This document shows positions 14,344 through 31,953 of a stretch of 38,201 nt of DNA, piece by piece; position 1 is the stretch's first letter; each line of letters starts with the position of its first letter. Source of the stretch: a virus. The DNA lies in the IMG/VR virus record IMGVR_UViG_3300017726_000019, positions 1-38,201 of that record; one strand, given 5' to 3'. A program made the translations under genes and the position numbers. The notes beneath the pieces are model-generated. The model saw only the letters and a program-made list of their open reading frames with translations. It did no database searches and was not told the DNA's origin.

Positions 14344-14501
14344 TACAGGTCGTCATCAATAAATTTGGTCAAAGTAAAAGAACCGTCTTTGTTGTCAATC
14401 CATTCTAACATATCTCCTTCTTTCCATCCAGTTTCTTGCAGTATTTCTTCTGTGAAGGTTAGAACTCCATCATCACTAACTGTCAAAGTAGTTTTTATCA
14501 T
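14343..14501 (-). CDS. AbrB/SpoVT-like swapped-hairpin peptide, 52 aa
   Basis: A 52-aa protein. LTVSDDGVLTFTEEILQETG, followed by WKEGDMLEW and a DGSFTLTKF strand, matches the AbrB/MazE looped-hinge DNA-binding fold, in which two chains form one domain. I infer a dimeric DNA-binding regulator or an antitoxin-like protein; no toxin partner is evident next to it. It overlaps both neighbours: ATGA with the gene upstream and TAATG with the Nudix gene, so translation is likely coupled. Confidence 0.75.
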   Translation of the reverse strand: MIKTTLTVSDDGVLTFTEEILQETGWKEGDMLEWIDNKDGSFTLTKFIDDDL

Positions 14502-15025
14502 ACCCACTCAGGTTTACGTTCAGGAATACGAAGGTAGTTATCTTTTACCCACGGTTTGGATGCGATATACATCTTGTATTTGTCATAGATATCAACACCT
14601 GTATCATACTTGAACTCATCAGGTCCAGCAAAAACAAAAGGTGTTGTATCCTTCCCACTACGACCTTGAGGATCTGCGGTAGGGAGTATTTCCTTTGCTG
14701 CTAGGAGTGTCTTCTGACAGGTATGGACCTTACCATAACGAGCAGTGTACTCGTCACACATAGCAAGTCCATGAGCAAGCAACCACTGCCAGTTAGTTAC
14801 AAACTCATTTGCCCAAATAGTGCAGGGATGATTGCGAAAAGCACCCTTCTCAGTAGCATAGGGAGTACCGTCTGCTTTAGGAAGAGTGCCGAATCCATGC
14901 CCCCATTTGTCAGAGCACACAATAGCAAGCATCTGACAGGTCTCTAGAGGCATCTTAACGATGTGCTTGTCGGGAAGAACTCGTGCCGACTTGTGAGGAT
15001 CTGGGTCTGTAACAAAGATATTCAT
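14498..15025 (-). CDS. Conserved phage protein, DKHxVKMxLET family
   Basis: A 175-aa soluble protein. The start MNIFVTDPDPHKSARVLPDK, then HIVKMPLETCQML, with NHPCTIWA, NWQWLLAHGLAMCDEYTARYGK and a C-terminal DIYDKYKMYIASKP, is a pattern I know from uncharacterised phage proteins. Relatives are sometimes labelled pyrimidine-dimer glycosylase-like, but I see no clear match to T4 DenV, so I do not adopt that name. Several conserved His, Cys, Trp and Asp residues suggest an enzyme. It is coupled to the membrane gene upstream (ATGA) and to the AbrB-like gene downstream. Confidence 0.6.
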   Translation of the reverse strand: MNIFVTDPDPHKSARVLPDKHIVKMPLETCQMLAIVCSDKWGHGFGTLPKADGTPYATEKGAFRNHPCTIWANEFVTNWQWLLAHGLAMCDEYTARYGKVHTCQKTLLAAKEILPTADPQGRSGKDTTPFVFAGPDEFKYDTGVDIYDKYKMYIASKPWVKDNYLRIPERKPEWV

Positions 15026-15282: not shown

Positions 15283-15818
15283 CCACTATGGATATATCGA
15301 CCATCAAAAATAACCAAACGATTTGGTTTTGGAGTGATGGACTCTTTTATAGTAAAACTATCAATGTTATCTCCATTGACTTGAGATCCAGAATCTCTCT
15401 CATTAAAGATGATAGTATTACCATCGGTTTGATTTAAATAAAGAATTGATGAATAGTGAAATTGGCCAGGATAGTCAACATGAGGTCCATGAATAGCACC
15501 ATCTACAGTTTGTGTACATAGATCTGCTCTGACTCTCATAACTTCCTTTGCACCAAGATAAGATTTTACCTTTAGAGCAAAGGGATAAATCAAGTCACCT
15601 TCTCTAGATCTTGATTTATCCTTTTCAATAAGGAGATTAGAAAAACCTTGAGTGGGTTTAATCTCACCATTTATGCTGAATTTCTTATTACTAGTATAAG
15701 TAGAATCTCCACTATAGTACCAATGAAAATCATCATCATTCATGACAGTATTTACGATAAAATCGAAATAAGACTTATCAAGGAAATCATCAATTACTTC
15801 AATAAATTTAGTCCTCAT
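15228..15818 (-). CDS. 2OG-Fe(II) oxygenase, prolyl-4-hydroxylase-like (copy 5)
   Basis: A 196-aa dioxygenase with the classical HxD metal motif, unlike the four other copies: GPHVDYPGQFHYSSILYLN. It continues with DGNTIIFNER and RLVIFDGRYIHSGCSPK, where His is the third metal ligand, then CRKLLNSNYR with the Arg for 2-oxoglutarate. The start MRTKFIEVIDDFLDKSYFDF resembles prolyl-hydroxylase-like phage proteins. The substrate may be a protein or a nucleotide. It overlaps gp45 by 11 nt. Confidence 0.8.
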   Translation of the reverse strand: MRTKFIEVIDDFLDKSYFDFIVNTVMNDDDFHWYYSGDSTYTSNKKFSINGEIKPTQGFSNLLIEKDKSRSREGDLIYPFALKVKSYLGAKEVMRVRADLCTQTVDGAIHGPHVDYPGQFHYSSILYLNQTDGNTIIFNERDSGSQVNGDNIDSFTIKESITPKPNRLVIFDGRYIHSGCSPKDHTCRKLLNSNYR

Positions 15819-16476
15819 AAGATGAATCTGGTTCTAGGGCAATCCAGTAAGTAAGATTCTTATCAGAGTTAACAAACTTAGATAAAAGTTTCTTAGAAAT
15901 TGAAACTTGATAACTACCAGGAAGAATTTTAATATTTTCTACCTTAAAGTTGAAACTAAAAATATTCTCAGTCTCACCAACAATAATAGAGAAATCATTG
16001 GAAGTATCATTCTTACGATCAGATACAACTAATTTAACAACTCCATTCTCACCAACGACAGATAGATCTGGAAGTTGATAAACAGCAGATGCTTTAAGGA
16101 GTTTATCCAGTTGCTGAGTATTGAGATTGAAAGAGATCTCTTCAGATGTCAGAACAATATCTTTCTCAGGAGGACTGATAATCACATTGGGATCAGCAAA
16201 GAAGTACTTAGAACGCATCTTACCTTCACGGATAACCATGTAAGAATCATTCTCAATGTCAAGTTCAGGACTCTGGTGCAGACTCAGACCATTAAGAAAT
16301 TGGTTAAGATCATAAATGCCAAAATCTTTGGGGAAGTCTTCATTTACTTCAACCTCAGCAAGAATGTTCTTCATCACACTGATAGTACGGAGTTTCTTAC
16401 CTTCCTTGAAAAGGAGAGACTGGTTAATATTAGAAAAATTTTTAAGAATATTAACAGTTGAATCAGAAAGTTTCAT
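15808..16476 (-). CDS. 45: Sliding clamp gp45
   Basis: Trimeric DNA clamp that tethers gp43 and also activates late transcription through gp55. It is 222 aa (T4 gp45 is 228). MKLSDSTVNILKNFSNINQS at the start and LFKEGKKLRTISVMKNILAE match T4 gp45, and the C-terminus has LTYWIALEPDSSYED. I chose the ATG at 16476 because AAAGGTGATT precedes it; a GTG at 16482 in frame is a weaker option. It overlaps the DUF3310 gene by 14 nt. Confidence 0.95.
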   Translation of the reverse strand: MKLSDSTVNILKNFSNINQSLLFKEGKKLRTISVMKNILAEVEVNEDFPKDFGIYDLNQFLNGLSLHQSPELDIENDSYMVIREGKMRSKYFFADPNVIISPPEKDIVLTSEEISFNLNTQQLDKLLKASAVYQLPDLSVVGENGVVKLVVSDRKNDTSNDFSIIVGETENIFSFNFKVENIKILPGSYQVSISKKLLSKFVNSDKNLTYWIALEPDSSYED

Positions 16477-16975
16477 AATCACCTTTAGGTTGCTTGTGTA
16501 GACCAGAGAAATGGTAGAGAAGAATGCAATAATGAATTGCTTTTAGAATGTCTTGTTTAGACTTTCCACCCTTCTTACCAAAACGAGAAAGATATTTGAT
16601 TGCATTAGAACGACAGAATGGTTCTGCGTCACCAATACCTTCAATAAGATCAAGAGTCTGTGTTTTAGAATCTTGAGATGTATAGTGAGATTTATATGTT
16701 GAAGACAGGTACTCACGAACCTCCTTCATAGTCAAATCCTCTTCATACTTCCAAAAACCATTATTTGAAAGTTGATCAAGATTTAAGTCAATTCGGTCTT
16801 CACTCATAGATGAAATCGGCGCATTGATATTGAGAGTATTCCCAAAGTCGAGATAATCTTCTTCGAGAATTGGTCGGTCGTCTGCTAACGGACGACCATC
16901 GTTATTAAAGTAATTCATTTCGTTTTCACTTAATCCATACATTTCGTCGTAAAGCATACTCCAAGAATTAGTCAT
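16463..16975 (-). CDS. DUF3310-domain protein
   Basis: A 170-aa protein. The C-terminal part, residues about 125-160, carries the DUF3310 signature: CRSNAIKYLSRFGKKGG then KSKQDILKAIHYCILLYHF. Such domains occur as short proteins or fused to nucleotide kinases in phages; their biochemical role is not known to me. The N-terminal 100 residues are acidic and Asn-rich with no family resemblance. AGAGG lies upstream of the ATG, and a perfect sigma70 promoter (16990-17018) starts the transcript here, so this is the first gene of the gp45 operon. Confidence 0.75.
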   Translation of the reverse strand: MTNSWSMLYDEMYGLSENEMNYFNNDGRPLADDRPILEEDYLDFGNTLNINAPISSMSEDRIDLNLDQLSNNGFWKYEEDLTMKEVREYLSSTYKSHYTSQDSKTQTLDLIEGIGDAEPFCRSNAIKYLSRFGKKGGKSKQDILKAIHYCILLYHFSGLHKQPKGDYETF

Positions 16976-16989
16976 AATAAACCTCTGTT

Positions 16990-17018
16990 ATTATATCAGA
17001 AGTTGATGGTGTTGTCAA
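16990..17018 (-). promoter_or_regulatory. Consensus sigma70 promoter inside the 3' end of the cobS-like gene
   Basis: On the minus strand TTGACA (17018-17013) and TATAAT (16995-16990) are 17 bases apart, with all 12 bases at consensus. The -35 box is coding sequence of the cobS-like gene, and the stop codon TGA directly abuts TATAAT. It should drive the DUF3310, gp45, gp44, gp62 and regA operon early in infection. Confidence 0.87.
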
Positions 17019-18108
17019 TTGTATCGATACTATCATCAGATGTCATTTGAAAGTCAGCATCGATTTTGTCATAGAGTTCGATAAAAGATTGCTTGGTCTC
17101 ATCATCGAACCGTGCAGTGCAGACATCAATTGCTTTTTCTTTATTATTAAAAATACTGTAAGCACGAATGATGTGAACAAGACGACGAGTAGAGATGATT
17201 TCATCAACACCACCATCATAGAAAGTCTTACGGATGATGTCTGCCCAATCCACAAGACGTTTGCAGAAGGCAGGAGCAACCACATTAAGGTCTTTAGCAA
17301 TACCTTCAAGGATTTTCTGTTCAATTGAGGGAGATGGATATGACTGATCAAAAGTTACAGGGAAACGTTCGAGGAATGCTTCATTGAGAACATTGGTTCC
17401 GATAAAACGTCCATCTTCAGAACCCTTACCTTTAGTATTAGCAGTTGCAAATACTTGGAACCCTGCAGAAGGTTTTACAAATTTTCCAATCTTCTTAAGA
17501 AAGACACCCTTACCCTCTAGAATAGACTGAAGACAGAGAATTTTATTTGAAGCAAGATCAATTTCGTCAAGAAGAAGTACGGCACCTCGTTCAAGTGCTT
17601 CAATAACAGGACCATTATGCCAAACAGTATTACCATCAATAAGTCGGAATCCACCGATAAGATCATCCTCATCGGTCTCAATGGTAATGTTTACTCGGAT
17701 TAGTTCTCTACCAAGTTGAGCACAAGCTTGTTCCACAGAAAACGTTTTACCGTTACCAGAAAGTCCCGTGATAAACGTCGGATAAAAAAGATTGGACTTA
17801 ATAATTTTTTTAATATCACTAAAGTTACCAAAGCTGACGAAGGTATCATCTTTCTGTGGGATAAGGTTTTGTTCGATTGCAGGCACTGCTGCAGGTGAAC
17901 TATAAGTCACTTCAAGATCCTGAATGGGTTCTTTTACATCTTCCAAGTCCCATTTGCCACGACGAACTTTAAAACCAACCATCTTATTAGTGACAGTTTG
18001 GTAATTAGTTCCATTCATAGCACACCATGCACGAATGTCAGAACTGGTGACTTGATTGCCATACAGTGCTTGCAGAGAAGTGCGGATATACTCGGAAGAA
18101 ACGGTCAT
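16996..18108 (-). CDS. cobS: CobS/MoxR-like AAA+ ATPase
   Basis: A 370-aa AAA+ ATPase of the type annotated as porphyrin/cobalt chelatase subunit CobS in cyanophages. Walker A is GLSGNGKT at residues 115-122, Walker B is AVLLLDEIDLAS, and sensor 1 is QVFATANTKGKGS. RFPVTFDQSYPS then EQKIL is typical of MoxR/CobS. The first 60 residues form a separate N-terminal domain (IRTSLQALYG, then AWCAMNG). Upstream on the same strand lie a 55-aa zinc peptide and a VWA/HEXXH protein, the partner type expected for MoxR-like ATPases. Cobalt chelation would need a CobN-type subunit, which is not in this window; protein remodelling is the alternative. Confidence 0.9.
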   Translation of the reverse strand: MTVSSEYIRTSLQALYGNQVTSSDIRAWCAMNGTNYQTVTNKMVGFKVRRGKWDLEDVKEPIQDLEVTYSSPAAVPAIEQNLIPQKDDTFVSFGNFSDIKKIIKSNLFYPTFITGLSGNGKTFSVEQACAQLGRELIRVNITIETDEDDLIGGFRLIDGNTVWHNGPVIEALERGAVLLLDEIDLASNKILCLQSILEGKGVFLKKIGKFVKPSAGFQVFATANTKGKGSEDGRFIGTNVLNEAFLERFPVTFDQSYPSPSIEQKILEGIAKDLNVVAPAFCKRLVDWADIIRKTFYDGGVDEIISTRRLVHIIRAYSIFNNKEKAIDVCTARFDDETKQSFIELYDKIDADFQMTSDDSIDTIDNTINF

Positions 18109-18130
18109 TTGTGTCGTTTGAACTGAAGTT

Positions 18131-18136
18131 ATTATA
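18131..18136 (-). promoter_or_regulatory. Possible -10 element overlapping a stop codon
   Basis: TATAAT on the minus strand contains the TAA stop of the 55-aa zinc peptide and lies 23 nt before the cobS-like ATG. No -35 box is seen at 16-18 bases; an activator or chance is possible. Confidence 0.3.
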
Positions 18137-18299
18137 GTCTAGAATTTGGGTCAGTTTCCTCATCAGAGGACAGTTTAGAAAGTGGTATTCCTTTATGTTT
18201 TAACATACAAGCACTCCTTGCCCATGCCCTAGAAAGACTAGTGACATCAGCACAGAGTGTGTCAAATTTACCACAATAAGGACAAGATCTCTTAGTCAT
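18132..18299 (-). CDS. Zinc-finger-like peptide, 55 aa
   Basis: A 55-codon frame. It begins MTKRSCPYCGKFDTLC, with CxxC and a third Cys six residues later; another Cys and a His follow in ARSACMLKHKG, enough to bind one zinc ion. The tail is acidic. The ATG overlaps the stop of the VWA protein gene (ATGA), and the stop lies within a possible promoter of the cobS-like gene. Its place between the VWA and AAA+ genes suggests it is an accessory to that pair, for example an adaptor. Confidence 0.65.
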   Translation of the reverse strand: MTKRSCPYCGKFDTLCADVTSLSRAWARSACMLKHKGIPLSKLSSDEETDPNSRL

Positions 18300-20425
18300 G
18301 CAATCAATGAAACAAACTCATTAAGAACTTTTTTATTTGATTTTTTAGTCTTTAATGATTTGACAAAAGCAGACTTAATCTTTGCTTTCGTTGCACCTTC
18401 ATCAACTTCAAATTCTGCCTGATTGGAGAGATCAGATCCAGCAAGTCCAATATATGTATCATAACCAGAAGTTTTAATCATAACACAACGTTCCTTTCTC
18501 CACCTAGATTTCAATACTTCAGTATCTTCCCACGATTCTGAATGAAGACGAATGAAAGAACCAGAATCACGACCCTCAAGAATACGAATGCCTAAGAAAT
18601 TTGTATTTGGGAAATTATCTTTCAAATTAGTAAGGAGAAGATTTGTAAAAGAAACGTATGCAGAATCATGATACTTGGTTACTTTGTAAGTACTACCAAT
18701 CTTACGATCACGAATATAACAGTTAGCATGTAGACGTTTTGTTCCAATACGTTCTTCCCCGTTTGGATATAAAATCTCAGCATGACGATTGCAAGGTGCT
18801 GCTTCACCATCCGTCAAAACAATACACTGAACTTTTTCAAGAGAATATTTTTTCTTGAAGGCAGGAATAATATTATGAAGAGAAATTAGTGCTTCATTCA
18901 GAGGAGTTCCAGAAAGACTTAAACGAGAAGGAGGAGTGTAATCAACATACTTACAAAAGGAGAATCCAATTCGATACATTGTTTTCATTTGCTTTTCAAG
19001 AACTCGATTATTTACATCACTAGTAAGAATGTTCATCATAGAGAACTGATCAGACACTACAAGCACTCCATCTTTCTTTTCGTAATGAGGTTCTGGATAG
19101 ACTGGGTTATTGTTCTCATCCCATGTAATATAATTATATTCATTTGTAAAGGCATATACATCAAACGGAATTGATACCTTACGACAGAACCAAATTAGAT
19201 TAAACAGTTGCTTCATAGTATCAAGCATCACATGTCCCATGGAACCAGACCAATCAAGAACAAAAACTAGTCCATGATTCTTACCATCTGGAAGGACAGT
19301 TATTTTCCTGAATAAATCTTCATTGTACTTATAAGTATGGAGTTTAGAAGTATCAAGAACTCCAGTCCGAGATGTAGAAGAACGAGCATATGCACTCGCA
19401 GACTTTCTACACTCAAATTCTTTTACAAGATAGTTGACTTCTTTTTGTGCAGATTTTTTGAACTTATCGTAGTCAGTATCTACCCAATCAAACCTACTTG
19501 CATTGATACCTTCCAGCAACTCCCAATGATCATCACAAAGTTTGTGAATTTCTTTATTAGAAGAAACAACTGTCTTAAGATTAAGATTTGGAATGCTAAT
19601 ATAAGTTGTTTCACTATATTGATTATCTGCACCACGGTCATCTATCAGATCACTAATAGCATCTTGAAGATTGTCAACAGTCTTTACCTCAACATTAGAA
19701 GATCCACCATCAGAAGAAGATTCAATCTGTGGTATAGAATCCTCACCAGATTCACCCTGCTCAGAAGTCTCATTTGAATCTGTATCTAATTCACCATCAC
19801 TAGAATCGGAAGTGTTTTTATTTTCAGTAGAACCAGAAGATCCTTCAGTAGGAGCAAGTGTGTTCTCACTCTGGTCGTTATCTTGTTTTTGTTTACAATA
19901 GTTATATAATTCTTCAGCAACAATAAGAACATCAGAAAAAGTTTCACAATCAGCAATTGCTTTAATCAAACGTCCCTCTTCCATGTTATGAAAAGGAATG
20001 TTTACATAGTTACCAATCTTAAAGTAAAGATTTGCACGATCTGCAAGATTCATTGAAGGAATATCTTCATTCTCTAGTGCAAAAAAATCTTCATCAGAAA
20101 GTTCATCGTAACCACGATAAAAAGTTTTGGAAAGTCCAGCATACTTACGTTTCATAAGTTTTTCAATGCGAGCATCCTCTACAACATTGACAAACTGTTT
20201 GGGAGTATCCCAATCCCATTCATCAGGAGTGAAGAGAGCATGTCCAACTTCATGAGCAACTAACATATCAAAAACACACTCAGATGCCTTCTTCCACATA
20301 GGAAGTGTCAGAACCCGAGTGTGTACATTGAACATCGCAGTCTCAACATGACGGTGCTCAACAACCAGATCCTCGGTAGCAAGGAGTTTGGCAAGTTGAC
20401 CTTTGACCTCAAAGTTGATGGACAT
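18296..20425 (-). CDS. CobT-like VWA protein with an N-terminal HEXXH motif
   Basis: A 709-aa protein in three parts. Residues 50-100 have a zinc-metalloprotease-like site, LVAHEVGHALF (H58, E59, H62), followed by NVVEDARIE, which could supply the third ligand. Residues about 180-255 are a Ser/Glu/Asp-rich linker. The C-terminal half is a von Willebrand A domain with the MIDAS motif VLDWSGSMG (D391) and a later CIVLTDGEAAP. The layout is that of CobT, the cobaltochelatase subunit that works with the AAA+ ring of CobS, but the intact HEXXH suggests peptidase activity or its remnant. It forms a cassette with the zinc peptide and the CobS-like ATPase. Confidence 0.85.
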   Translation of the reverse strand: MSINFEVKGQLAKLLATEDLVVEHRHVETAMFNVHTRVLTLPMWKKASECVFDMLVAHEVGHALFTPDEWDWDTPKQFVNVVEDARIEKLMKRKYAGLSKTFYRGYDELSDEDFFALENEDIPSMNLADRANLYFKIGNYVNIPFHNMEEGRLIKAIADCETFSDVLIVAEELYNYCKQKQDNDQSENTLAPTEGSSGSTENKNTSDSSDGELDTDSNETSEQGESGEDSIPQIESSSDGGSSNVEVKTVDNLQDAISDLIDDRGADNQYSETTYISIPNLNLKTVVSSNKEIHKLCDDHWELLEGINASRFDWVDTDYDKFKKSAQKEVNYLVKEFECRKSASAYARSSTSRTGVLDTSKLHTYKYNEDLFRKITVLPDGKNHGLVFVLDWSGSMGHVMLDTMKQLFNLIWFCRKVSIPFDVYAFTNEYNYITWDENNNPVYPEPHYEKKDGVLVVSDQFSMMNILTSDVNNRVLEKQMKTMYRIGFSFCKYVDYTPPSRLSLSGTPLNEALISLHNIIPAFKKKYSLEKVQCIVLTDGEAAPCNRHAEILYPNGEERIGTKRLHANCYIRDRKIGSTYKVTKYHDSAYVSFTNLLLTNLKDNFPNTNFLGIRILEGRDSGSFIRLHSESWEDTEVLKSRWRKERCVMIKTSGYDTYIGLAGSDLSNQAEFEVDEGATKAKIKSAFVKSLKTKKSNKKVLNEFVSLIA

Positions 20426-20448: not shown

Positions 20449-20454
20449 ATTATA
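20449..20454 (-). promoter_or_regulatory. Possible -10 element overlapping a stop codon
   Basis: TATAAT on the minus strand contains the TAA stop of the HNH-like gene and lies 24 nt before the ATG of the VWA gene. I find no -35 box, so the call is weak. Confidence 0.3.
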
Positions 20455-20770
20455 GAGGCAATACAGCCTTGGACTGCGATCTCTGTGCCAGTTTATAAAC
20501 CGTCACAGGGTCGTTTTTATGTCTAAGTCTATGACAATTAGAGCAGATCAAGACACATTTGTCAATTTCTGCTTGGACAATCTCCATAGAGTACCCATCT
20601 CTGAGTAACATTCGGACTTCATCCCTTTTCAATTCTGGTTGCTCATGATGAAAATCCATGCAAATTGGATCATAGGTATTTCCACAATCCTGACAGGGTT
20701 TTCCAGTTTTATAATTAGTCAACCATTGCATTCTGGATAGGACTTTAGATTTTCTTGTTCTTTTTGGCAT
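20450..20770 (-). CDS. HNH-type zinc endonuclease-like protein, 106 aa
   Basis: A small basic protein with two zinc-binding CxxC pairs, PCQDCGN (C26, C29) and ICSNCHRLRHKND, around MDFHHEQPE. This is the HNH/McrA-like layout in which HH supplies the catalytic His and the CxxC pairs hold the structural zinc. The basic N-terminus (PKRTRKSK) fits DNA binding. It could be a free-standing homing endonuclease or a packaging- or repair-associated nuclease. No intron or split gene is visible near it. Confidence 0.75.
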   Translation of the reverse strand: MPKRTRKSKVLSRMQWLTNYKTGKPCQDCGNTYDPICMDFHHEQPELKRDEVRMLLRDGYSMEIVQAEIDKCVLICSNCHRLRHKNDPVTVYKLAQRSQSKAVLPL

Positions 20771-20783
20771 TTTATGGTTCGTA

Positions 20784-21629
20784 TTATTTTAGATTTGGAT
20801 ATAAAAATTGATAATACCAAGAGTAATCTCTCAGTATTTTATGTTGAGATTTCCGTTTTATCAACGGAAACTCATATGTTTCTTTTTTAGAAACTACCTT
20901 AGGGTGTATCGTATGATCACCCCAAGGTGCATATATTGAATCATTGTGATATCTTTGCTTTACATCATTCAAATCATTCTCGTAATCATCGGCACCAATG
21001 AAGTCATAAATTCCAGATAATACTTTCCGAGGATTTTCCATCATATCTTCATATCTTACAAACTTAAAATTCTTTAGATAATTTCTCTCACAATCCAAAA
21101 CTTCCTTTAATGCAAACAAAGGTGTGTAGATCATATCGGTCTGCATGTAAGATTCAATTCTTTTATCCATCAAATCAACTTCATTATAATCATCTCTAGT
21201 TTCAAAAGGATAAAGTTCAGGAGTGGATGGACCCATAATTCTATTTACGGTTTCCATTTTTTCTAAAGAAGAAATAACTCCACGTAAATCTCGAACAACG
21301 TAGATAACTTTTGCGGGTGGAACAAGATTAAAAAGTAAGTCAAAATCTACTGCCCAACTTCTATCCTTATCAACGTAGATATTAGTATCACACAAATTTT
21401 CTAACCAAGAAGATATTCCTGCTCGCATAAAAGACTGATACAAGACCCTCATTTCTTTCATTGTATGTTGAGTCTCGGTGTATACCTTTTCAGAATGCTG
21501 TGAGATATTTGTCAGAATATTTGACAAACAAGAATCCATCTCTACAGTCATATCTGGATGTTGCTGTAAAAGATTACCCAGAAGAGTTGATCCACTTCTA
21601 GGTAATCCCGATATAGTTACAAATTTCAT
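20784..21629 (-). CDS. Sulfotransferase family protein
   Basis: A 281-aa PAPS-dependent sulfotransferase-like enzyme. The 5'-phosphosulfate loop is SGLPRSGSTLLGNLLQQHPD at residues 7-26, and the 3'-phosphate-binding segment is KVIYVVRDLRGVISSLEKM, including the conserved Arg and Ser. The acceptor is unknown; possible targets are a cell-surface glycan, a lipid or a protein. It is coupled by ATGA overlap to gp46, an odd place for a metabolic enzyme between recombination genes. It is full length and uses AT-rich codons like its neighbours, so if it was acquired it was not recent. Confidence 0.85.
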   Translation of the reverse strand: MKFVTISGLPRSGSTLLGNLLQQHPDMTVEMDSCLSNILTNISQHSEKVYTETQHTMKEMRVLYQSFMRAGISSWLENLCDTNIYVDKDRSWAVDFDLLFNLVPPAKVIYVVRDLRGVISSLEKMETVNRIMGPSTPELYPFETRDDYNEVDLMDKRIESYMQTDMIYTPLFALKEVLDCERNYLKNFKFVRYEDMMENPRKVLSGIYDFIGADDYENDLNDVKQRYHNDSIYAPWGDHTIHPKVVSKKETYEFPLIKRKSQHKILRDYSWYYQFLYPNLK

Positions 21630-23341
21630 GATTCGATTATCTGTGAGAAATTCTTTCTCTTTTCAAATTTAATAACACGATCAAATTTATCATGGAGAGA
21701 TTCTTTGTGAGAAATGACAAAGATGTTAGCGTCTTTAATAACAAATCGAATAATTTTAAGAAACTCATCAGTGCCAAATCCATCAAGAGATGAATCAAAA
21801 ATTTCATCCATAATCAAAAGATTTGTGCTAGTAGAATTCTTAATCTTAGCAACTTCTCTCCAGGTAAACAATAGTGCTAGATCAATACGTTGCTTCTCAC
21901 CTTCCGAGAATGAAGAGTAAGAAAAATCTTCATGAATTGGTGATTCTATCGTTTCATTAAACTCTTCATCAAGCTTGAAATTAATATAAAACTCCATCAT
22001 CTGAAGGTACTTGGATACCTGCAAATTGATAAGTGGTAGATACTTTTCAATAATCTTAGATTTTACTCCACTATCTTTCAACAATTCGTGTAGGAAGTCG
22101 TGATTAGTAACCTTGAGTCTCTTGTCAGTTAAATCATCAAATACCTTTTCAAGACTTTCTTTATATGCATTCAACTTATCCTGCTCTTCACTCTTATCAG
22201 TTGATTGATCATTGATGCTTTTAATCTCACGATTGAGTCCAGTTATCTGTGCCTGTAGTGATGAGATCTTTGCACTATTGGTACTAATTTTACTTTGGGA
22301 CTCCATAATAGATTTTGTAATATTATCATATACCTTCTCACGAAATTCTTCAGATTTGATAGTATCGATAAGTTGGTCATATCCATCCTCTAATTCATTT
22401 AGTTTGTTGTCAGTATTTTTAAGTCTTTTAACACGAAAAGACTCTTCTATAGGTTGCTCACATGTAGGACACGTGTGATTATCAGAAAAGAAATTTTGCT
22501 CACGTTTGATGGTATCCATTTTCTGTGAGATTTTACCCTTCAAGTTTCCAAGTTTACGAATTTTACTTTTCGCATCTTGCACACCTTCAAGTTCTTTACG
22601 ATATCTCAGAACTTCATTCTCCTCAATTATATTATCTTGATTAAAGACATCGATATCAATACTCAGTTCATTAATCTTATTATCATACTTCAGTAGTGTA
22701 TTCTTTCCTCTGGTGTCAAGTTCTCTAATAAAATTTTCTTGCATCCTAACCTTATCAGAAAATGATTCTTTCTTAAGATTCAACACCTTAATATCTTCCC
22801 TATGTTTCCTAAGTTGATCCTTAATAATATTATTCATCGTAGAAAAAACTTTGATGTCTAAAATATCTTCAATAACTTCACGTCTACCTGCTGCCGACAG
22901 TTGCATAAACGGTGTAAAATTACTACTCCCTAAAATTACAATTTGGGTGAAAGACTTATAATTCATCTTAAGAATACTTTGCTCAAGATATTTCTGCTGA
23001 TCATTTGCGGATGCTGCTTGATCTAAAAGTTTTCCATCACGATAAATCTCAAAAATATTTGGTTTAATACCACGAACAATATTCCACTCTACAGATCCAA
23101 TTCTAAAATCAATATTTACAACACAATCTTTCTCGTTCGTAGAGTTAATAAGTTGGGGTTTATTAATTTTGCGAAATGACTTTCCAAACAATACAAAAGT
23201 CAGTGCATCCAGGATAGTTGACTTCCCTGCACCATTCGTTCCAACTATTATACTGTTTTGACATTCATCAAGTTGAACTTCGGTAAATTGATTACCAGTT
23301 GAGAGAAAGTTTTTCCAACTAATTTTTTTAAAATAAATCAT
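21626..23341 (-). CDS. 46: Recombination exonuclease subunit gp46 (SbcC/Rad50-like)
   Basis: ATPase subunit of the gp46/47 nuclease that resects DNA ends for UvsX. It is 571 aa. Walker A is IVGTNGAGKSTILDAL near residues 32-47. A long coiled coil with a zinc hook, HTCPTCEQPI, occupies the middle, and the ABC signature SFSEGEKQRIDLALLF is followed by Walker B LLIMDEIFDSSLDG and a late ISHKE switch His. It overlaps the DUF3110-like gene by 14 nt. Confidence 0.97.
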   Translation of the reverse strand: MIYFKKISWKNFLSTGNQFTEVQLDECQNSIIVGTNGAGKSTILDALTFVLFGKSFRKINKPQLINSTNEKDCVVNIDFRIGSVEWNIVRGIKPNIFEIYRDGKLLDQAASANDQQKYLEQSILKMNYKSFTQIVILGSSNFTPFMQLSAAGRREVIEDILDIKVFSTMNNIIKDQLRKHREDIKVLNLKKESFSDKVRMQENFIRELDTRGKNTLLKYDNKINELSIDIDVFNQDNIIEENEVLRYRKELEGVQDAKSKIRKLGNLKGKISQKMDTIKREQNFFSDNHTCPTCEQPIEESFRVKRLKNTDNKLNELEDGYDQLIDTIKSEEFREKVYDNITKSIMESQSKISTNSAKISSLQAQITGLNREIKSINDQSTDKSEEQDKLNAYKESLEKVFDDLTDKRLKVTNHDFLHELLKDSGVKSKIIEKYLPLINLQVSKYLQMMEFYINFKLDEEFNETIESPIHEDFSYSSFSEGEKQRIDLALLFTWREVAKIKNSTSTNLLIMDEIFDSSLDGFGTDEFLKIIRFVIKDANIFVISHKESLHDKFDRVIKFEKRKNFSQIIES

Positions 23342-31030: not shown

Positions 31031-31681
31031 TTATAGTGAATTTAAAAAGTCGTTGAATAGACCTAACTTATGCTCTTCCAATGCTTTTTGATCTACTAAC
31101 GTATTAATTCTACGTGCAGTCTTAGCAGCAATTTGTTCACGAAGGATTCCTCCTTGCCAAACCCATTCCTTTCCTTCCATGATTCCTGAAACAAAAGCAT
31201 CGGGTGCAGAAGGATCGGCAACAATATCAGCAGCAGTTGCCAACATGAAGTCTTCACCAACTTCAGAATAACCTTCCTTAGTTGGACGAAGTGATCCAAT
31301 TCCTCTAGAAGAAACTCCGAGCATCACACCTTCTTTAAGAAGAGACTCGGCAATTTTACCCATTGGTGTTGATAGGATTTGTGCCTTACCAATAAAGTCA
31401 TTTCCCTTTTGCTCAAGAGAAACGATTTTATGAGAAACACGATCAAGATTGATAGTTGGACCATCTGGATGACCTAGTTCACCTAGAGCACGACCTTTTG
31501 AAATGTGCTCATCAGTATATCTCTTTACCTCACGTTCCATTACGTTAAGACGATATACTCTGCCGTTACGGTTTTGTTGTTCGGTTTGGAGAAAAGGTCC
31601 TTGAATATAAAGAGTTTTCTTACCGTTTCTTGTTTCGGTAATAACCTCTACCTTTTCGATTTCTTCTCTGATTAGTTTCAT
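31031..31681 (-). CDS. 21: Prohead core protease gp21
   Basis: Serine protease that cleaves scaffold and capsid proteins during head maturation; 216 aa (T4 gp21 is 212). The start MKLIREEIEKVEVITE is T4-like. GELGHPDGPTINLDRVSHKI gives the catalytic His region, and LGVSSRGIGSL gives the nucleophilic Ser. I placed the start at 31681, two bases after the stop of the 89-aa gene. The frame stays open to 31741, but that would overlap the upstream gene and add a Cys-rich stretch not found in the family. Confidence 0.93.
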   Translation of the reverse strand: MKLIREEIEKVEVITETRNGKKTLYIQGPFLQTEQQNRNGRVYRLNVMEREVKRYTDEHISKGRALGELGHPDGPTINLDRVSHKIVSLEQKGNDFIGKAQILSTPMGKIAESLLKEGVMLGVSSRGIGSLRPTKEGYSEVGEDFMLATAADIVADPSAPDAFVSGIMEGKEWVWQGGILREQIAAKTARRINTLVDQKALEEHKLGLFNDFLNSL

Positions 31682-31683
31682 GG

Positions 31684-31953
31684 TTACGCAGTAAATCCGA
31701 CTTTTGCACCTAAGACTGTAGCAGCTGCAGCAAATATACAATGTGAGTATTGCTTTTCAACAAATTCAACAGAATTTCCTGGAAGGGTAATTGAACCAAC
31801 AACGTTTCCACCTTGAGTTTCTACCACAGTAACTAAACGTGCAGTAGCAGAATTATTTACGAGTCTAACTACAGATGCTTGAGAGAAGCTAGTAGCAGTA
31901 CCAGTTGTTGTTGGACAGGCTGCCTCAGCACCCAACAATAATGTTCTAGCCAT
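31684..31953 (-). CDS. Unknown virion-block protein, 89 aa
   Basis: A small protein, rich in Ala, Thr and Val and without charged clusters. FSQASVVRLVNNSATARLVT, then VVGSITLPGNSVEFVEKQYS and VLGAKVGF, look like a small beta-sandwich. The end GFTA could be an exposed tail. In T4 this place (between gp67 and gp21) holds gp68, to which I see no resemblance. It could be a decoration or tail-fibre-like small virion protein. It has a perfect late promoter of its own at 31977-31984, which suggests high late expression. Confidence 0.7.
   Translation of the reverse strand: MARTLLLGAEAACPTTTGTATSFSQASVVRLVNNSATARLVTVVETQGGNVVGSITLPGNSVEFVEKQYSHCIFAAAATVLGAKVGFTA

Follow-up and report, generated by a model that had tools for sequence, protein, structure and literature searches.

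An AAA+ ATPase and a VWA protein with an invariant metallopeptidase-type site in T4-like cyanophages: a candidate ATP-driven remodelling machine rather than a cobaltochelatase

The window analysed here, the 38.2 kb stretch of DNA that makes up IMG/VR virus record IMGVR_UViG_3300017726_000019, is a T4-like cyanophage fragment, which among annotated relatives is closest to Synechococcus phage S-SCSM1 (82.5% nucleotide identity across the module described below). Situated between gp46/gp47 and the gp45 clamp gene are three minus-strand open reading frames (ORFs), encoding a von Willebrand factor A (VWA) protein, a 55-residue four-cysteine peptide and an AAA+ ATPase (Table 1). All three were recovered as an initial annotation of the sequence had placed them, together with the ATGA coupling in which the start codon of the peptide overlaps the stop codon of the VWA gene. 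The VWA and ATPase genes form a pair present in nearly all T4-like cyanophages of the ocean, where they are usually labelled "peptidase" and vitamin B12 gene, respectively; the latter, cobS, belongs to the cyanophage core (PMC3037559), and surveys of ocean viruses routinely score it among the auxiliary metabolic genes for vitamin B12. Published readings of the pair conflict, one seeing a viral CobST that hijacks host metabolism (PMC8651126) and the other a chaperone–protease pair (PMC7824862). The analysis below leaves us highly confident that the genes encode a pair of the AAA+/VWA kind in which the metallopeptidase-type site is intact.

Table 1. Features of the module and its flanking genes in the window (residue numbers refer to the respective protein).
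Feature	Position	Strand	Details
VWA/metallopeptidase protein, 709 aa	18296..20425	−	ORF; PHROG 459 "peptidase", E=2.7e-255
VWA protein domains			gluzincin-like N-domain ~1-190; acidic low-confidence linker ~190-245; helical region; VWA ~384-709
HEVGH, residues 58-62	20240..20254	−	predicted: H58 and H62 zinc ligands, E59 general base
NVVED, residues 80-84	20174..20188	−	E83, predicted third zinc ligand
MIDAS D391-W-S393-G-S395	19241..19255	−	plus T507 at 18905-18907 and D539 at 18809-18811
Four-Cys peptide, 55 aa (C-P-Y-C-G...C...C...KHKG)	18132..18299	−	in variable cargo slot
MoxR/CobS/NorQ-class AAA+ ATPase, 370 aa	16996..18108	−	PF07728 AAA_5, E=4.7e-17; PHROG 249, E=2.1e-133
Walker A GLSGNGKT, residues 115-122	17743..17766	−	
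Walker B LLLDE, residues 178-182	17563..17577	−	
DUF3310-domain gene downstream of ATPase	16463..16975	−	PF11753, E=4.7e-9; association only
gp46 recombination nuclease subunit	21626..23341	−	PHROG 77; upstream synteny anchor
gp45 sliding clamp	15808..16482	−	PHROG 223; downstream synteny anchor

Evidence for such a site comes from a small set of residues in the VWA protein. As first annotated, the protein contains HEVGH (58-62), the segment N80-V-V-E83-D84-A-R86 and a complete metal-ion-dependent adhesion site (MIDAS). A set of 133 full-length homologues from viral contigs, bacterial assemblies and annotated phages, picked by BLAST and not by motif, was filtered at 90% identity to 105 non-redundant sequences. 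H58, E59, H62, N80, E83, D84 and R86 are identical in all 105, as are the MIDAS residues D391, S393, S395, T507 and D539, while invariant columns in the protein number only 43 of 709. Loss of the HEXXH residues in most homologues had been named beforehand as a possible refutation, and no such loss occurred in this set. The spacing from the first histidine to the glutamate ranges from 24 to 37 positions. The same residues were invariant in an earlier set of 27 sequences, chosen with a loose HEXXH/ED pattern and with two Pelagibacter phages and Ochrobactrum phage OC among them; phage OC retains HEXXH and the glutamate at 22% identity to the window protein. Nearly all of the 463 records matching the VWA protein in the annotated phage collection are cyanophages, and the two genes lie on the same strand in 115 of the 116 loci where both were found. 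More distantly, the CobT-like protein of Pseudomonas phage nickie (L046:1954-4038) has DSEISK in place of HEXXH, and the site seems to have decayed there independently; RHEph10 and SSU5 retain HEXXH. A host origin of the gene was considered and set aside: a scan of bacterial genomes gave 15 relatives, mostly in mixed-taxonomy metagenome bins resembling binned phage contigs. When plasmids were searched, the VWA protein of the Ochrobactrum phage returned nothing, and plasmid homologues came up through the ATPase instead.

Structure prediction is consistent with this assignment. The full-length AlphaFold2 (AF2) model (54 sequences; predicted local distance difference test score, pLDDT, 77) resolves into an N-domain, an acidic linker modelled with low confidence, and a VWA domain, which finds its best PDB match in NorD of the NorQD complex. 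Because the whole-protein fold search picked up the VWA domain only, the N-domain was modelled separately (41 sequences; pLDDT 89). In this model HEXXH falls within a helix spanning residues 49-65 and E83 within a second helix at 76-94. Zinc-metallopeptidase folds account for 13 of its 14 best PDB matches, at E-values of 0.1-1.2; abylysin comes first, and the matches include jannalysin, selecase, ArdC (E=0.16), IrrE/PprI, LTA4 hydrolase and ERAP1, all of which we take to be zincins. These E-values are weak, so it is the agreement among the matches that counts, and no single score. The minigluzincins abylysin and jannalysin, and ArdC, are the closest solved folds, and in them, as in the phage domain, a helix carrying HEXXH precedes another with a conserved glutamate; they differ from the phage protein in standing alone, with no VWA fusion, and their E-values are only 0.1-0.6. 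Among predicted viral structures, the N-domain matches many phage and halovirus proteins labelled CobT or VWFA. Two further elements lie in the C-terminal half: a beta-rich insertion predicted at ~546-583, and a conserved F(I/V)xLVA-like tail shared by phage VWA proteins, with F704 present in 102 of the 105 homologues. Taken together, the VWA protein is predicted to be an active protease, which we consider reasonably probable.

The second component is an AAA_5-type ATPase. Walker A, Walker B, the sensor TAN (222-224) and Arg248 were all present as initially read, and are 99-100% conserved in 99 ATPases (LLLDE in 100%; I183, a variable Walker B position, excepted). Motif sets of this kind, in the VWA protein and the ATPase alike, lie well outside what chance would give. 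With the ATPase motifs, arginine finger included, and an adjacent VWA protein bearing an intact MIDAS, the pair shows the sequence features that define the MoxR class; a cyanophage MoxR ATPase has been assigned to the CGN subfamily (PMC9964418). Matches in the PDB were CobS (74.6 bits), NorQ (50.6) and CbbQ (47.9). The N-terminal region (~1-110) is unrelated to the CobS N-terminus. Its first ~60 residues appear helix-turn-helix-like in weak Pfam matches (E=0.003 and 0.007), mainly in syn9 (L036:5983-6280).

The ATPase core is clearly related to CobS (99.5% in hhalign), a point in favour of the proposal that phage CobS and CobT stand in for subunits the host lacks and join host CobN to raise cobalamin for ribonucleotide reductase, in which the "peptidase" label is called a mistake (PMC8651126). 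The genes concerned there, and in the definition of cobS as a cyanophage core gene (PMC3037559), are the same as those described here, and the intact HEXXH/E site and the missing CobS N-terminus argue against that reading. The CobS-specific N-terminal segment gave an hhalign value of 0.06% with the phage ATPases, against the core value above, and the window ATPase scored 65.8 bits on the NCBIfam CobS equivalog model TIGR01650, below its cut-off of 558.55. On the CobT side, the window VWA protein fell below the cut-offs of PF06213 and CobT_C (PF11775), and no Pfam family matched it at E<=0.01. Some phage relatives come closer: the "CobT" of phage T5S1 exceeds the PF06213 cut-off, which counts in favour of the B12 proposal, and aligns end to end with the solved CobT 9uka. 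In a multiple alignment the phage HEAGH lies opposite CobT DSMAL, and the segment LEDIWMER opposite VEQARVEA. A profile of the window family's N-domain reached 98% with plasmid and T5S1 proteins and 84% with a pair of CobT sequences, one of them retaining HEXXH; the link from the window family to solved CobT is weaker than that from the T5S1-type phage proteins.

A further contrast with CobT is at the site itself. Genuine CobT has DS(M/I/V)AL and (D/E)AVEQ at the places of the phage HEXXH and NVVED, and HEXXH is absent from its usual place in 33 of 33 CobT sequences (30 top-scoring Pseudomonadota loci and three weaker ones); the HEPAH of CobT locus L164 lies upstream and is unrelated to the site. 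Because the site that is invariant in phages is absent from genuine CobT, it has presumably been selected for something that CobT does not do. Three of the five weakest PF06213 matches (L182-L184) were considered as candidates for the phage type and rejected, having no HEXXH at the usual place and representing another CobT-type group. These three, from assemblies G243, G229 and G129, respectively, have a DCSGS MIDAS and score far under genuine CobT; L182 adjoins a CobS-like gene near genes resembling aromatic-compound metabolism, and a CobN match occurs in G243, with none in G129 or G229.

A search for CobN, also named beforehand as a check, found none in the window record, 20 complete phages or 2 plasmids. 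The accompanying premise, that marine cyanobacteria make pseudocobalamin without CobNST, proved wrong in that marine picocyanobacteria do have a CobN: it exceeds the TIGR02257 cut-off in 32 of 41 Prochlorococcus genomes, and the missing part is CobS, which passes its cut-off in none of the 41 (a lone sub-threshold match comes from G001, an assembly that also holds the phage contig L135). This is congruent with the report that cyanobacteria have the large subunits and lack cobS and cobT (PMC9227772), and it counts in favour of a phage-supplied CobST. Other distributions count against it. Neither of the two genomes with chromosomal-element HEXXH versions has CobN over the cut-off, compared with 14 of 15 genomes with genuine CobT, and homologous pairs also occur in Pelagibacter and enterobacterial phages. 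To our knowledge, Pelagibacter (SAR11) and enterobacterial hosts lack CobN. In the control panel, Caulobacter vibrioides gave CobS and CobT without CobN, so even near-genuine CobST can occur without the chelatase subunit. With the invariant HEXXH and MIDAS, the missing CobS N-terminus and the absence of CobN all bearing it out, the original suggestion of a protein-remodelling pair, not a cobalt chelatase, is supported; on sequence grounds the pair is very likely not a cobaltochelatase component, and recruitment of host CobN strikes us as quite improbable.

What, then, might such a pair do? The reading we favour overall, with confidence evenly divided, is a two-part ATP-driven remodelling machine with a zinc-protease domain. 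The AAA+ protein would form a hexamer of the MoxR/NorQ type, as its family membership suggests. In the NorQD complex a finger of the VWA protein reaches into the pore of the ATPase, and the C-terminus of the VWA protein keeps hold of the post-sensor-1 loop (PMC13036017). By analogy, the phage VWA domain would dock on the hexamer, probably through its hydrophobic C-terminal tail and a finger-like insertion, for which the element at ~546-583 is a candidate. The intact MIDAS may hold a client protein, which ATP turnover would pull or twist toward the N-terminal gluzincin-type domain, resulting in clipping or in licensed remodelling. The weakest step concerns the client, which could most readily be a host or phage protein touching DNA replication, recombination or transcription, and possibly a host defence factor that is disabled in this way. 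NorQ/NorD and CbbQ/CbbO resemble the phage pair in the AAA+ core, in the VWA domain, best matched to NorD, and in a conserved hydrophobic C-terminal tail, and differ in that neither their client nor their metal-insertion role is shared (PMC13036017). CobNST has a homologous AAA+ core, and its N-domain and VWA domain are homologous through the related phage proteins; it differs in the replacement of HEXXH in CobT, and the phages have neither the CobS N-terminus nor CobN. As for NorD, we know of no HEXXH domain in it.

The direction of that client is suggested by genomic context. Across cyanophage loci the module is flanked upstream by gp46 (92 of 97) and downstream by gp45 (52 of 56). Downstream of the ATPase, 51 of 56 loci have a homologue of the DUF3310 gene; it is a steadier neighbour than any gene in the slot inside the pair, and may be a functional partner of the two. 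Outside this group, homologous pairs adjoin DNA ligase and DnaE in nickie and SSU5, primase and polymerase in ICP2 and T5S1, and DNA polymerase III alpha in RHEph10; plasmid pairs adjoin ssb/RecT/exonuclease or toprim genes, and by ORF reading the pair stands beside primase-like genes in two integrated elements. A less clear-cut case is Roseobacter phage CRP-810, in which a pyrimidine dimer glycosylase lies close to the pair.

These neighbours bear on a competing proposal, made for jumbo phages, that the pair is a virion assembly machine, a chaperone plus processing protease for structural proteins, comparable to the MoxR/VWA pair that serves tail assembly in Acidianus two-tailed virus (PMC7824862). 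That the same architecture has already been so interpreted, and that complex T4-like virions generally require chaperones, speaks for it. Its expected timing does not agree with the motif NATAAATA, which we take to be the T4-type late-promoter core: in the window it precedes the tail tube, scaffold and sheath genes, and it was found upstream of only 2 of 127 VWA and 3 of 112 ATPase genes, close to a chance level of ~1.7% (arithmetic from a shuffled count). Since the motif is not enriched overall in the window, only its placement is informative. Moreover, the pair sits in the replication cluster and not the structural one, the window already has a gene for a dedicated head maturation protease (gp21, 31031-31741), and plasmids, which make no virions, carry homologous pairs. 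We regard assembly as an unlikely role. The place in the replication cluster, the lack of a late promoter and the replication neighbours elsewhere together favour an early or middle role over virion assembly, and we hold a part in replication takeover to be an evenly balanced proposition. The cyanophage transcriptome literature searched for expression of the pair did not mention cobS, and its peptidase mentions were unrelated.

The ssb/RecT/exonuclease, toprim and primase-like neighbours, and the sharing of the pair by phages and plasmids or integrated elements, also fit an anti-defence or antirestriction role, in which the zinc domain would cleave, or the motor dismantle, a defence protein of the host, allowing phage or plasmid DNA to survive while it enters and replicates. 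The resemblance of the N-domain model to IrrE/PprI and to ArdC, the antirestriction metallopeptidase of plasmid R388, points in this direction, although the ArdC match is weak, as given above. Against this role, residues that stay the same in all 105 homologues point to a client that does not change and not to an arms race. A known defence system was rejected as an identity for the pair: no PADLOC model matched, PADLOC covering defence and not counter-defence. Anti-defence as the main function seems to us rather improbable.

Several points weigh against the remodelling machine with its protease domain. The fold matches of the N-domain model, with their weak E-values, are consistent with it and by themselves not strong, and the pair could remodel its client without cutting it. 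Cyanophage synteny is one lineage's inheritance, which reduces the replication context to about eight independent cases. The missing late promoter is compatible with an assembly role, because assembly chaperones can be made earlier. Finally, Prochlorococcus hosts do carry CobN, so absence from the host is no argument against a viral CobST that hijacks it.

The architecture itself is already published. Group 2.2 jumbo phages encode a MoxR AAA+ protein together with a vWA protein that carries a metallopeptidase domain at its N-terminus; this combination can be likened to the present pair by the published description of that architecture only, and virion assembly was proposed for it (PMC7824862). 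To this the present analysis adds the spread of the pair over T4-like cyanophages and pelagiphages, the residue conservation, the contrast with CobT and the replication context. Within the literature searched, the quantified CobT residue contrast, the test of the CobS N-terminus, the cross-element replication context and the late-promoter comparison are new. The difference in conservation between phage proteins and genuine CobT offers a sharp, testable reason for preferring the protease-machine reading; if that reading is true, what is treated as a textbook case of a viral gene for B12 metabolism has been misinterpreted. The finding also bears on the origin of cobaltochelatase. Conceivably, though we find it doubtful, phages, conjugative plasmids and integrated elements share a widespread ATP-driven, VWA-gated metalloprotease that protects or enables replication, with CobS/CobT a domesticated branch in which the protease site has decayed.

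One part of the initial proposal, that the 55-residue zinc peptide acts as an adaptor, did not survive. The peptide gene is real, and it is under purifying selection (for example, dN 0.27 and dS 2.3 versus S-SCSM1). It occurs in only 13 loci, the window included, all close relatives and always in the slot between the pair. Elsewhere the slot, near 0 to 2.8 kb long, holds an S-adenosylmethionine (SAM) methyltransferase, pcyA, a 2-oxoglutarate (2OG)-oxygenase-like gene, the T4-GC147 gene or nothing. This narrow distribution and the variable slot argue against a conserved adaptor, and the peptide is probably not part of the machine. The T4-GC147 gene occupies the slot in P-SSM2 and ACG-2014d (L037:7211-7741; L042:8380-8949) and lies downstream of the clamp in the window (14498-15025); PHROG labels it "DNA binding protein", and it may be what PMC9964418 treats as an overlooked pyrimidine dimer glycosylase. 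The window also carries two genes inserted between gp46 and the VWA gene, one for a sulfotransferase (20784-21629) and one for a small HNH endonuclease (20450-20770); of 97 loci, 14 and 13, respectively, have homologues at this position. In two pelagiphages (L034, L038) a ribosomal protein S21 gene lies directly downstream of the ATPase.

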